This document shows positions 11,237 to 19,707 of a stretch of DNA of 26,911 nucleotides, piece by piece; position 1 is the stretch's first letter; each line of letters opens with the position of its first letter. This DNA is from a virus. A model generated the notes under the pieces. It did not search any database, had not been told where the DNA came from, and saw nothing but the letters and a program-made list of their open reading frames with translations. The stretch lies in IMG/VR virus record IMGVR_UViG_3300030108_001515, positions 1-26,911 of that record. One strand, given 5' to 3'. Both the position numbers and the translations under genes were made by a program.

Positions 11237-11535
11237 TCAATTATAATTTCATCCTTTGTAATATGTTGTTCAACTCTTTCAAGTGCTTTGCCTTCTGTTC
11301 TATCAGCTATAAACTGAACCGCCCAAGACTTACCTTCCAAAGCGTATTGAAATACGCGATGCATTACTACATCTAGCTTGGTCAATCCGTTTGTGCTTCC
11401 TTCTTCTTCGCCAATCTTGCGTAATATGTCCGGAATTGATTGACTGCCTTTGGGCCTACCTTTACCAACTGAAGCGGTGTTTCCCGCTACAAATTGTCCT
11501 TTACTATTCCGATTACCTCCGTTTTCAATCGGCAT
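11233..11535 (-). CDS. terS: Terminase small subunit-like protein, DUF5681 type
   Basis: A 100-aa protein with the N-terminal signature NSKGQFVAGNTASVGKGRPKG of DUF5681, a domain often found directly upstream of phage large terminases. The remainder is helical (LDVVMHRVFQYALEGKSWAVQF), consistent with DNA recognition and oligomerisation. It overlaps the methyltransferase gene upstream (ATG inside the last codons) and the large subunit downstream. The terminase role is inferred from position and family. Confidence 0.82.
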   Translation of the reverse strand: MPIENGGNRNSKGQFVAGNTASVGKGRPKGSQSIPDILRKIGEEEGSTNGLTKLDVVMHRVFQYALEGKSWAVQFIADRTEGKALERVEQHITKDEIIIE

Positions 11536-12715
11536 TTTTAATTCTTTCTGCTTTGTTTCCGGTGTATTCTTCCCAGCGCTTTACAATCACATCGCAATAA
11601 TGTGTATCAATTTCCATTCCATAACATTTACGATTAGTCTTTTCACAAGCAATTAACGTTGAACCAGAGCCTAGAAATGGGTCAAGTATATTTAAAGCAT
11701 CAGGTAATAGCTTGAAACATTCTATAGATAATATTATTGGCTTTTGTGTTGGATGAACTCTTTTGTCTTTGTGTTCACTTGCCTTTAACAATCCTTGCCA
11801 TCTATGTCTAACAATTCTTGCGGGTTTGTCTTGATTTGTCCAGGCCATCTCAATATCAGAGAAATTTTTTGTAGTTCCTTCAACCCCATCTATCTTATCC
11901 CAAACAATCCATCCTCTACTATTAGGCAACTTATCTGCAAAATGATTTGACCCCCAAATGCAATAATTTTCTGATAATCCTAATAAATGAGTAGGGTCAT
12001 AATATTTTTCATCTCCAATAATAGGGTTATATTTGTTTGCTTTTATAAAATTTTTATTTCCTTTTTTTAAATTTTTCTTCCCACCAAAAGCACCACCCCC
12101 ACCTATTTGATTGTTTTGAACTACACTTATGCCGTAAGGAGGGTCAGTAAACACCATATCAGCCTTCTGACCATCCATCAAGCGTTCAACATTTTCCTTT
12201 TTTGTTGCATCGCCACATAATAAACGATGTTCGCCTAATATCCATAAGTCGCCCGGTTGCGTAATTGATTCTTCAACTTTCGGAACTTCGTCATCTTCAA
12301 TAAGTCCATTGACTTGTTCAGGCTCTTTAAATTGTAATTCATCCTCATTGAATCCCCAATCAATCAATTCCCCAACGTCAAAATGGTTGGCTAACGCGTC
12401 CCAATCCCATTGACCAGTATTTTTATTTAATCTAACATTTAATTCTTTTTCCTTTTCTGGTGTTAAATCAACCTCTACACAAGGAACGTTTTCATATCCT
12501 AATTCTTTTGCAACTTTTAGTCTTTGATGACCACCAACTAATATATTCTTTCGTTCTTTGTTTGTGTTAACAATCAACGGATCAACAAAGCCAAAGCGTT
12601 TAATTGAATCTTTTAAGTCTTGATGTTGGTCTTTAGTAAGTTCGCGCGGATTGTATTCTGCAAATATTAAATTATTTACGTCATATTGCTTGGTTGTGAG
12701 TTGACCGTTTGGCAT
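11525..12715 (-). CDS. ParB-like nuclease domain fused to DNA adenine/cytosine methyltransferase
   Basis: A 396-aa two-domain protein. Residues about 8-95 form a ParB/sulfiredoxin-like domain with the GGHQRLKVAKELG box (61-73). Residues about 155-390 are a beta-class N6-adenine/N4-cytosine methyltransferase: DPPYG (191-195, catalytic), then HPTQKP (321-326) and the cofactor loop DPFLGSGST (345-353). The glycine/lysine-rich stretch near 205-222 may be a target-recognition loop. It may protect phage DNA from host restriction or mark packaging sites; it sits directly before the terminase genes. The ATG is in a TAATG overlap. Confidence 0.94.
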   Translation of the reverse strand: MPNGQLTTKQYDVNNLIFAEYNPRELTKDQHQDLKDSIKRFGFVDPLIVNTNKERKNILVGGHQRLKVAKELGYENVPCVEVDLTPEKEKELNVRLNKNTGQWDWDALANHFDVGELIDWGFNEDELQFKEPEQVNGLIEDDEVPKVEESITQPGDLWILGEHRLLCGDATKKENVERLMDGQKADMVFTDPPYGISVVQNNQIGGGGAFGGKKNLKKGNKNFIKANKYNPIIGDEKYYDPTHLLGLSENYCIWGSNHFADKLPNSRGWIVWDKIDGVEGTTKNFSDIEMAWTNQDKPARIVRHRWQGLLKASEHKDKRVHPTQKPIILSIECFKLLPDALNILDPFLGSGSTLIACEKTNRKCYGMEIDTHYCDVIVKRWEEYTGNKAERIKNAD

Positions 12716-13873: not shown

Positions 13874-14179
13874 TTATGGATTGAAATGACGTGTTTTTTT
13901 ACAAGCTTGATAAAAGTTTGTTTTGATTGTGCTTACGCTTTTGCCTTGAAGTTCAGCAATTCCAACAAATGAAAATCCTTGCACTATCCTCATAAAAACA
14001 ATCTTTTTTTGAATATCCGTCATATTTTGCCACCATTCACAAGTCCATTTAGCAAACTTTCTTTCGTCCTTGTCAAGGTTGTCATAAAACTGATTGTGTT
14101 CCATAACCTCCTTGACCACGTTTAGTCTTTTTATGGCAATTTTTGCCAAATCTGCGGATTCTTCGTCGTAACCTTGCAT
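13874..14179 (-). CDS. Sigma-70 region-4-like regulator, probable late-gene activator
   Basis: A 101-aa protein whose C-terminal half (WWQNMTDIQKKIVFMRIVQG, then FSFVGIAELQGKSVSTIKTN) is a helix-turn-helix of the sigma-70 region 4 type: a 'xxQxxVxxxRxxxGxSFxxIAxxxGxSxxTIKxxxxxAxxK' pattern. The N-terminal half is helical and acidic. The start is the ATG at 14179, in TAATG overlap with the membrane gene upstream; a longer frame exists but would cover that gene. As the last gene before the late block, it likely activates late transcription like the phage ArpU/RinA-type regulators. Role inferred from motif and position. Confidence 0.78.
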   Translation of the reverse strand: MQGYDEESADLAKIAIKRLNVVKEVMEHNQFYDNLDKDERKFAKWTCEWWQNMTDIQKKIVFMRIVQGFSFVGIAELQGKSVSTIKTNFYQACKKTRHFNP

Positions 14180-14301
14180 TATTTTATTGATTGTAATATC
14201 ACTTTTACTAATACCAAGACACCGATCAAACCGATCCAAAGCATTATGAGTCCAAAACCCATCTTGAATATAAAGTTTGCGATATCTAATAAAATACCCA
14301 T
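14179..14301 (-). CDS. Tiny membrane protein (40 aa)
   Basis: A 40-codon gene linked to both neighbours by TAATG overlaps. Nearly the whole chain is hydrophobic (MGILLDIANFIFKMGFGLIM, then LWIGLIGVLVLVKVILQSIK), giving one long or two short membrane segments with a Lys-containing end. It resembles early phage membrane peptides that alter host envelope physiology or exclude other phages; nothing sequence-specific confirms this. Coupling and the membrane-like composition argue against a chance frame. Confidence 0.75.
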   Translation of the reverse strand: MGILLDIANFIFKMGFGLIMLWIGLIGVLVLVKVILQSIK

Positions 14302-14540
14302 TAAAAAAAATCATCGTTTTTTGGTTTAAATGTGCTTTGGTAAACGTGGTGCGTCATTCCTTTGTCTGTCTTTTCTTTGTTCTTAGCGATTACAATATTC
14401 GCCCAACCGTTTTGATTTTCAATTTCTTTAAGTTGTTCCATAAATTCATTGACCTTAATTCCTACGTTTATTAATGAACTGCCTTCATCAAATACAACTT
14501 CTTTCAAAATAATTCCGTTTATATAGTTCTTTTCTTGCAT
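14301..14540 (-). CDS. Conserved-type small early protein (79 aa)
   Basis: A 79-aa protein (MQEKNYINGIILKEVVFDEG...). It has a beta-rich N-terminus, a central helix (VNEFMEQLKEIENQNGW) and the ending GMTHHVYQSTFKPKNDDFF. This arrangement recalls short phage proteins in replication regions with an OB-like or ssDNA-binding look, but no family can be named. A GGGAG site precedes the ATG, and the stop overlaps the next gene. Confidence 0.72.
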   Translation of the reverse strand: MQEKNYINGIILKEVVFDEGSSLINVGIKVNEFMEQLKEIENQNGWANIVIAKNKEKTDKGMTHHVYQSTFKPKNDDFF

Positions 14541-19445: not shown

Positions 19446-19560
19446 TTATCCTCCAAAAAATAGTTGGCGGGGTATGACGATTTTAGGAGGATGCGCCATC
19501 GGAGAGATGATGACGTATGGAGTTATCCCCGCCAAATTAATGTTATGACCTCCTAAAATC
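19446..19560 (-). ncRNA. Structured 5' leader with interleaved repeats (pseudoknot-type translational switch candidate)
   Basis: Two perfect inverted repeats interleave. Stem 1 is 12 bp (19549-19560 with 19479-19490; GATTTTAGGAGG in the RNA 5' arm) and stem 2 is 9 bp (19527-19535 with 19464-19472; TTGGCGGGG 5' arm). Their order 1-2-1'-2' gives a pseudoknot with connecting loops of 13, 36 and 6 nt. The 3' arm of stem 1 (AUCCUCCU...) also pairs with the GGAGGAU ribosome site of the 92-aa gene (19448-19454), with 7 bp plus 4 more past one mismatch. Forming stem 1 would therefore free the ribosome site, and losing it would hide the site. A 29-codon open frame (TTG at 19535, stop next to the gene's ATG) crosses it. 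No known riboswitch class was recognised. Confidence 0.7.
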
Positions 19561-19583
19561 ATATTCTAATATACTTAAGTTTT
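19561..19583 (-). promoter_or_regulatory. Candidate early promoter region (-10 like)
   Basis: Upstream of the structured leader the minus strand reads TTGATG, a 19-bp spacer, then TATATT (about 19570-19575), followed by a short AT-rich start zone. A second reading uses TTGAGC further upstream. Spacing is longer than ideal in both. A promoter is expected here because the early operon begins just downstream, but the exact boxes are uncertain. Confidence 0.35.
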
Positions 19584-19587
19584 ATAA

Positions 19588-19701
19588 ATTTTCATCAATT
19601 TTTTAAGGCTCAAGCGGTTTATCATTATGTGAAATTAATGCAATGTACATTTCAAAAAATCAATAATCACTTCGATTTTAATCAATTGTTAAGCTCAAGC
19701 C
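19588..19701. repeat. Imperfect 28-bp direct repeat in the main non-coding region
   Basis: On the minus strand GCTTGAGC-TTAACAATTGATTAAAAT (19701-19675) and GCTTGAGCCTTAAAAAATTGATGAAAAT (19615-19588) differ by two mismatches and one gap. Between them is TGAAAT...ATTTCA (an inverted repeat near 19630-19653). They are adjacent to the candidate promoter. They may be operator or iteron sites for a phage regulator or for replication start. Confidence 0.6.
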
Positions 19702-19707
19702 TTAAAT

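Follow-up and report, generated by a model that had tools for sequence, protein, structure and literature searches.

The leader upstream of the first early gene of this phage folds, as RNA, into a real and conserved pseudoknot with compensatory changes. We lean towards the reading that it represents a new family of leaders in which a 5'-terminal pseudoknot gates the translation of a phage early operon by means of an open reading frame (ORF) running through the knot. The window, by which we mean the whole stretch of DNA analysed, is the single virus record IMGVR_UViG_3300030108_001515 of IMG/VR (26,911 nt). Tracking one gene yielded 33 examples of this covarying early-mRNA pseudoknot, for which there is no Rfam family. 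The overlap of an RNA structure with a probably leaderless ORF makes structural control of leaderless translation directly testable.

Two interleaved stems precede the first early gene

The 12-bp and 9-bp perfect inverted repeats in the order 1-2-1'-2' described by the earlier note were confirmed (Table 1). Stem 1 is paired at 12/12 positions and can be extended to 14 pairs, including one U-G and one A-U, and stem 2 is paired at 9/9. A pair of perfect repeats (at least 9 bp and at least 12 bp) interleaved within 130 nt occurred once in the window, compared with a mean of 0.017 in 60 dinucleotide shuffles. Pseudoknot-free RNA folding of the leader returned stem 1 (14 pairs) together with an inner hairpin, CGUCAUC/GAUGGCG, hereafter P3, with a folding energy of -36.3 kcal/mol (z -3.2).

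Table 1 Features of the leader and of the neighbouring genes in the window
Feature	Position	Strand	Remarks
-35-like ATGAAA, weak	19595-19590	-	spacer of 16 to the -10-like box
-10-like box TATATT	19568..19573	-	5 nt upstream of the leader ATG
Pseudoknot leader	19562-19446	-	5' of the 92-aa gene, inside a 262-bp intergenic region
Leader ORF, 38 codons, MILGGHNINLAGITPYVIISPMAHPPKIVIPRQLFFGG*	19446..19562	-	TAA stop directly before the first-gene ATG
Stem 1, 5' arm GATTTTAGGAGG	19549..19560	-	includes SD-like AGGAGG
Stem 2, 5' arm TTGGCGGGG	19527..19535	-	9/9 with the 3' arm; covariation
Hairpin P3, 5' side CGTCATC	19509..19515	-	RNA folding
P3 loop ATCTCTCC	19501..19508	-	has the recurring motif TCTCTCC
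Hairpin P3, 3' side GATGGCG	19494..19500	-	RNA folding
Stem 1, 3' arm CCTCCTAAAATC	19479..19490	-	CCTCC can alternatively pair with the first-gene SD
Stem 2, 3' arm CCCCGCCAA	19464..19472	-	9/9 with the 5' arm; covariation
Shine-Dalgarno (SD) region GGAGGAT of the first gene	19448..19454	-	
First early gene, 92 aa	19167..19445	-	no convincing family match
Second early gene, 160 aa	18695..19177	-	phrog_11717 (unknown function)
255-aa DnaA/DnaD-like gene	18113-17346	same as leader	better conserved neighbour of the leader

The suspicion that the element matches no known class was borne out by a search with the Rfam 15 covariance models, which covered the window and 12 relatives and returned nothing at or above the gathering threshold; the top sub-threshold match, on the opposite strand, was to a nematode snoRNA (E 0.87). 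HDV-like ribozymes share the helix order of the leaders, P1-P2-P3-P1'-P2', and have a P1 of 7 bp and a short P1-P2 joint. In the leaders, by contrast, stem 1 is too long (11-15 bp in most) and the joint between stems 1 and 2 mostly measures 12-16 nt; with no Rfam match either, an HDV-like ribozyme was rejected.

The architecture recurs at a fixed genomic position

The 92-aa protein had only three relatives in IMG/VR (L002, L003 and L004), two of them from near-identical phages and the third, L004, 59% identical; the L004 leader retains stem 2, with A-U in place of G-C as its ninth pair. Relatives of the leader were located by tracking the 255-aa gene, whose product weakly matches a family of DnaA-like replisome organizers, and then scanning upstream for the architecture. 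These IMG/VR scans found the 1-2-1'-2' order in 33 loci, corresponding to 26 distinct leaders in about 8 sequence clusters drawn at about 72% identity. At all 33 loci the leader lies 1.5-3.2 kb upstream of the 255-aa-gene relative, on the same strand. L145, L148, L149, L170 and farther relatives of the 255-aa gene (L181 onward) showed no convincing leader.

The letters of the stems vary between clusters and every leader pairs with itself, as in relatives carrying TGCTTAAACCGA/TCGGTTTAAGCA with ACCGGGACA/TGTCCCGGT, GGTTAATACGA/TCGTATTAACC with ACCGGGGCGA/TCGTCCCGGT, or TGGGAGGACAAA/TTTGTCCTCCTA with GTGGGGTATCGTT/AATGATGCCCCAC. A covariance model of clusters A and B recovered hardly any other leaders, so the structure must be searched for by architecture. 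BLAST found nothing convincing for the leader among phage records or for the first-gene product among phage and plasmid records, and bacterial genomes yielded no relatives of either the first gene or the 255-aa gene. A pattern scan with an ill-fitting gap gave 13 matches, all 13 attributable to chance, and two looser pattern scans returned already known relatives only.

The first genes behind the leader differ between phages and encode unrelated small proteins; the leader persists. In many of these phages the first early gene encodes a 47-61 aa protein of the pattern RP..M...RFL.L.ARLEK..D.LGG..RV; first genes of this type (L154, L156, L161, L163, L169, L172, L178 and L191) had no convincing PHROG match.

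Compensatory changes support the crossing stems

As the stems had been picked by search, their self-complementarity alone would be a circular argument, and three controls were therefore applied: shuffles, arms taken from other clusters, and covariation with slid partners in an alignment. In the local shuffle test, the observed score was reached in 0/400 shuffles for each of the 8 cluster representatives. Arms swapped between clusters fitted poorly, with about 60% paired on average. Covariation was counted within clusters A and B because MAFFT gave no single structural alignment of all clusters; the resulting alignment A6 holds 11 leaders, aligned by column, and excludes L146 because MAFFT had shifted its stem 2 by one column.

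In A6, 96.6% of the cells of stems 1, 2 and P3 were paired. Ten pairs had changed on both sides, compared with 6.2 in shuffles (reached in 1/500), and there were 31 doubly changed cells, compared with 9.3 (0/500). The crossing stems 1 and 2 alone contributed 16 doubly changed cells versus 4.8 in shuffles (0/500), and the P3-equivalent hairpin covaried at 5/6 pairs. Counts of doubly changed cells are inflated by relatedness; the slid controls retain this relatedness, yet their pairing collapsed to 31-41%. Both UG and GU cells occur in A6, as RNA would show. A further hairpin, P4, which places the stem-1 3' arm in a loop and was suggested by folding of L152, L141, L153 and L178, showed no compensatory change, did not beat shuffles and was discarded.

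A start codon at stem 1 opens a frame that leads into the first gene

An ATG lies at the 5' arm of stem 1, or up to 12 nt before it, in 26/26 distinct leaders; stem 1 starts 4-12 nt past the ATG in clusters C and D and in L178. In 25 of the 26, the frame set by this ATG stays open across the pseudoknot. Among the cluster representatives, frame 0 had no stop before the end of stem 2 in 7/8, and the other two frames were stopped in 8/8. Given that an open frame arose in shuffles with a chance of 0.12-0.39 per leader and that the clusters are related, this signal is clear, not overwhelming. In the window the ORF has 38 codons, with its ATG at 19562, in place of the 29 codons reported by the earlier note, which had correctly placed its end right before the gene start: the TAA abuts the first-gene ATG.

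Where a first gene was called adjacent to the leader, the stop of the frame almost always lay between -7 and +11 nt of the gene start (with junctions of the forms TAAATG, ATGA and TAATG), or the frame continued into the gene, as in L142, L144, L152, L158, L159 and L167. The exception was L191, whose frame stops within the leader, 36 nt short of the gene. No first gene was called right behind the leader in L141, L143 and L146, and in L162 and L180 the frame passes a second structured element and then ends at the following start. Homologous first genes are in frame with the leader ORF in L158 and preceded by its stop in L140, which argues for delivery of ribosomes over an N-terminal extension. 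The ORF had been proposed as one further way for ribosomes to open the structure; its frame does lead into the first gene, and it is more widely kept than the SD pairing discussed below.

A conserved leader peptide was rejected, since frame 0 showed no synonymous excess (20/123 changed codons, compared with 37/133 and 37/134 in the other frames); nor were substitutions in the ORF enriched at third positions. With the peptide not conserved, selection appears to act on the passage of the ribosome through the leader and not on the product.

Across the 26 distinct leaders, -10-like matches peaked 5 nt before the ATG, with a mean best score of 7.75 compared with a shuffle mean of 6.57 (maximum 7.21 of 300). 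The promoter match of the window (9/12) was no better than shuffles when taken alone, and L178 lacks a clear -10 box. The sequence 5' of the leader ATG is AT-rich, with the -10-like box and no SD. From this arrangement we infer a transcription start no more than a few nt from the ATG; the early mRNA would thus probably be leaderless, with the AUG of the ORF at or near its 5' end.

A model for gating by the pseudoknot

In the model that we favour, the 5' end of the early-operon mRNA would form a knot of stems 1 and 2, with P3 inside, and would also be read as a short ORF. In the closed knot, the AUG, lying in or beside stem 1, would be poorly accessible and few ribosomes would enter. The knot would be open if its 3' arm had not yet been made, if a ribosome were already inside, or if some factor released the stem. 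Ribosomes on the ORF would then melt the knot and either end at the start of the first gene or run into it, so that the gene would be translated by termination-reinitiation or directly in frame and would depend on the ORF. The state of the leader might be set by a protein, as for T4 gp32, or by plain timing of transcription and translation. More tentatively, the leaders may constitute a new class of self-gating leaderless mRNA, in which the 5' start codon is trapped in the knot that its own ORF crosses, and only ribosomes entering before it closes, or after opening by a phage factor, reach the first gene. If true, such a self-gating leader would be an early-expression timer or sensor common to a whole uncultivated phage lineage.

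The alternative pairing proposed by the earlier note between the stem-1 3' arm and the ribosome site is exact in the window but not general. Positions 19492-19481 are complementary at 11/12 positions to 19459-19448 (7 bp, a mismatch and 4 bp), covering the GGAGG of the first gene. A CCUCC in the stem-1 3' arm is found in the GGAGG-type clade of the window (W, C, D, L172 and L191), where the SD pairing amounts to 6-10 bp and is individually weak in several members; it was significant in L095, L154, L161, L163 and L191, and weak in leaders of the window's type (p about 0.06-0.1). Clusters A and B, in which both arms and SDs differ in sequence, do not have the pairing, which hence cannot be the common mechanism of the family. 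The switch between two exclusive states is therefore at most an addition specific to this clade, in which the freed CCUCC of the stem-1 3' arm would cover the first-gene SD as an extra lock when no ribosome follows.

Alternative roles of the leader

An early phage protein might bind the knot, perhaps at a UCUCUCC loop, and repress the operon at the level of translation, in the way that T4 gp32 acts on its own mRNA; we regard such an autogenous operator as possible but less likely than not, and it is compatible with ribosome gating, for which it would supply the trigger. UCUCUCC occupies the equivalent P3 loop in the W, B, D, L172 and L178 leaders (TCTCTCC at L056:1215, L140:1481, L153:2889, L169:4361, L172:4069 and L178:2027). 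It is also present in a second, SD-sequestering pseudoknot at L159:4846 and L167:3217. The background of TCTCTCC is 0.12 per kb, and the motif is not bound to one reading frame. Its presence in at least five clusters, and again in the second motif, gives a hint of a shared factor, but clusters A and C have no such loop motif and the first genes vary.

The precedent is the T4/T2/RB69 gene 32 operator, a 5'-proximal H-type pseudoknot that precedes the RBS of a phage gene and is bound by gp32 (PMC3014915, PMC535899); according to a 2010 review, it may be the sole viral pseudoknot in translational autoregulation (PMC3014915). The leaders described here resemble it in having a pseudoknot ahead of the RBS in the mRNA leader. 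The T4 operator, however, is only about 28 nt long, is separated from an SSB gene by UUAAA repeats, and is not itself translated as an ORF that leads into this gene. The present leaders measure 93-99 nt, have P3 as an additional hairpin, are traversed by an ORF and precede unrelated first genes without an SSB match; there are no UUAAA or UUAA repeats between knot and start in the window, where the interval reads CTATTTTTTGGAGGATAA.

It seems unlikely that the pseudoknot mainly shields the early mRNA, the 5' bases being held in a 12-15 bp stem that blocks 5'-end-dependent decay and the open frame being merely tolerated. The stem-1 arm does lie at or beside the predicted 5' end of the transcript in most clusters, and a leader that stays while the first gene varies would fit service to the whole operon. 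Protection does not, however, predict the conserved ATG, the open frame or the stop/start overlaps, and the delayed onset of stem 1 in clusters C, D and L178 speaks against it.

The put sites of phage HK022 are RNAs that modify RNA polymerase (antitermination), and a structured leader that keeps its place at the 5' end of a long early operon, with unrelated first genes behind it, could act similarly at the level of the operon. We consider this improbable, as it leaves the open frame unexplained; we know of no likeness of the leaders to put sequences. Still less credible is a metabolite riboswitch with a pseudoknotted aptamer: the topology and the alternative SD pairing in one clade would suit it, but Rfam gave no match for the window and 12 relatives, there is almost no invariant unpaired core, and the loops differ wholly between clusters, unlike those of aptamers. 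A DNA operator or origin with no role as RNA, which perfect intergenic inverted repeats might suggest, is very improbable and was rejected, given that the repeats interleave, differ wholly among relatives, contain G-U pairs and overlap an open frame.

Comparison with known coupled leaders

Pseudoknots in translational control are already known from T4 gene 32, plasmid rep leaders and ribosomal-protein leaders. In rep leaders of the IncI-alpha/IncB type, the ORF is preceded by an SD of its own, the knot forms between two distant loops, and an antisense RNA exerts control. The present leaders differ from these in that the ORF has no SD of its own, being preceded by AT-rich sequence with the -10-like box, and probably starts at the 5' end of the mRNA, with the knot within it. 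The likeness to the leaders of IncI-alpha ColIb-P9 repZ and of IncB and IncL-M rep (references 9, 10, 13 and 18 of PMC10724649) lies in a leader ORF coupled to the next gene and a nearby pseudoknot; here, too, the ORF ends at or overlaps the next start. Gifsy-1 orf45-anrP/IsrK also couples a prophage gene to an upstream ORF within an RNA structure; its trigger is a trans-acting small RNA, and the relevant part of that account describes no conserved pseudoknot family (PMC4825925). Coupling through overlapping stop and start codons as such is established elsewhere (PMC6728339, PMC4825925).

A search of the open-licence literature found no paper describing such a leader family. To our knowledge, a knot at the mRNA 5' end has not before been combined with an overlapping, probably leaderless ORF and with the passing of ribosomes to first genes that are unrelated to one another.

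Further elements of the early region

The second pseudoknot motif occurs just before an early gene at L140:1735, L151:3751, L152:739 and L159:4804 and, with altered letters, in L162/L180 and at L167:3151. It consists of a 10-11 bp hairpin whose inner ATTCCTC pairs with the SD of the gene, GAGGAAT. The gene behind it is homologous to the 160-aa gene of the window in L159 and a different gene in the others. TCTCTCC, mostly doubled as TCTCTCCTCCTCTCTCCTCC, was also observed at L154:1946, L161:1236, L163:2630, L169:2564 and L173:864, where it directly follows a gene and precedes a terminator-like C-rich/G-rich hairpin, on the upstream side of the early block.

In the window, an inverted repeat TTTAAGGCTCAAGC/GCTCAAGCCTTAAA (19602-19615 and 19693-19706, 77 nt apart) flanks the region upstream of the putative promoter; it is present in L002 and L003, absent from L004, and a possible operator. 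On the minus strand, positions 13874-14314 encode a 146-aa protein with a match to Pfam Sigma70_r4_2 (sigma-70 region 4, E 9e-7), possibly a phage sigma-like regulator, and positions 11525-12715 encode a 396-aa protein with an N-terminal ParB-like domain and a DNA methyltransferase (phrog_498, E 5e-98).
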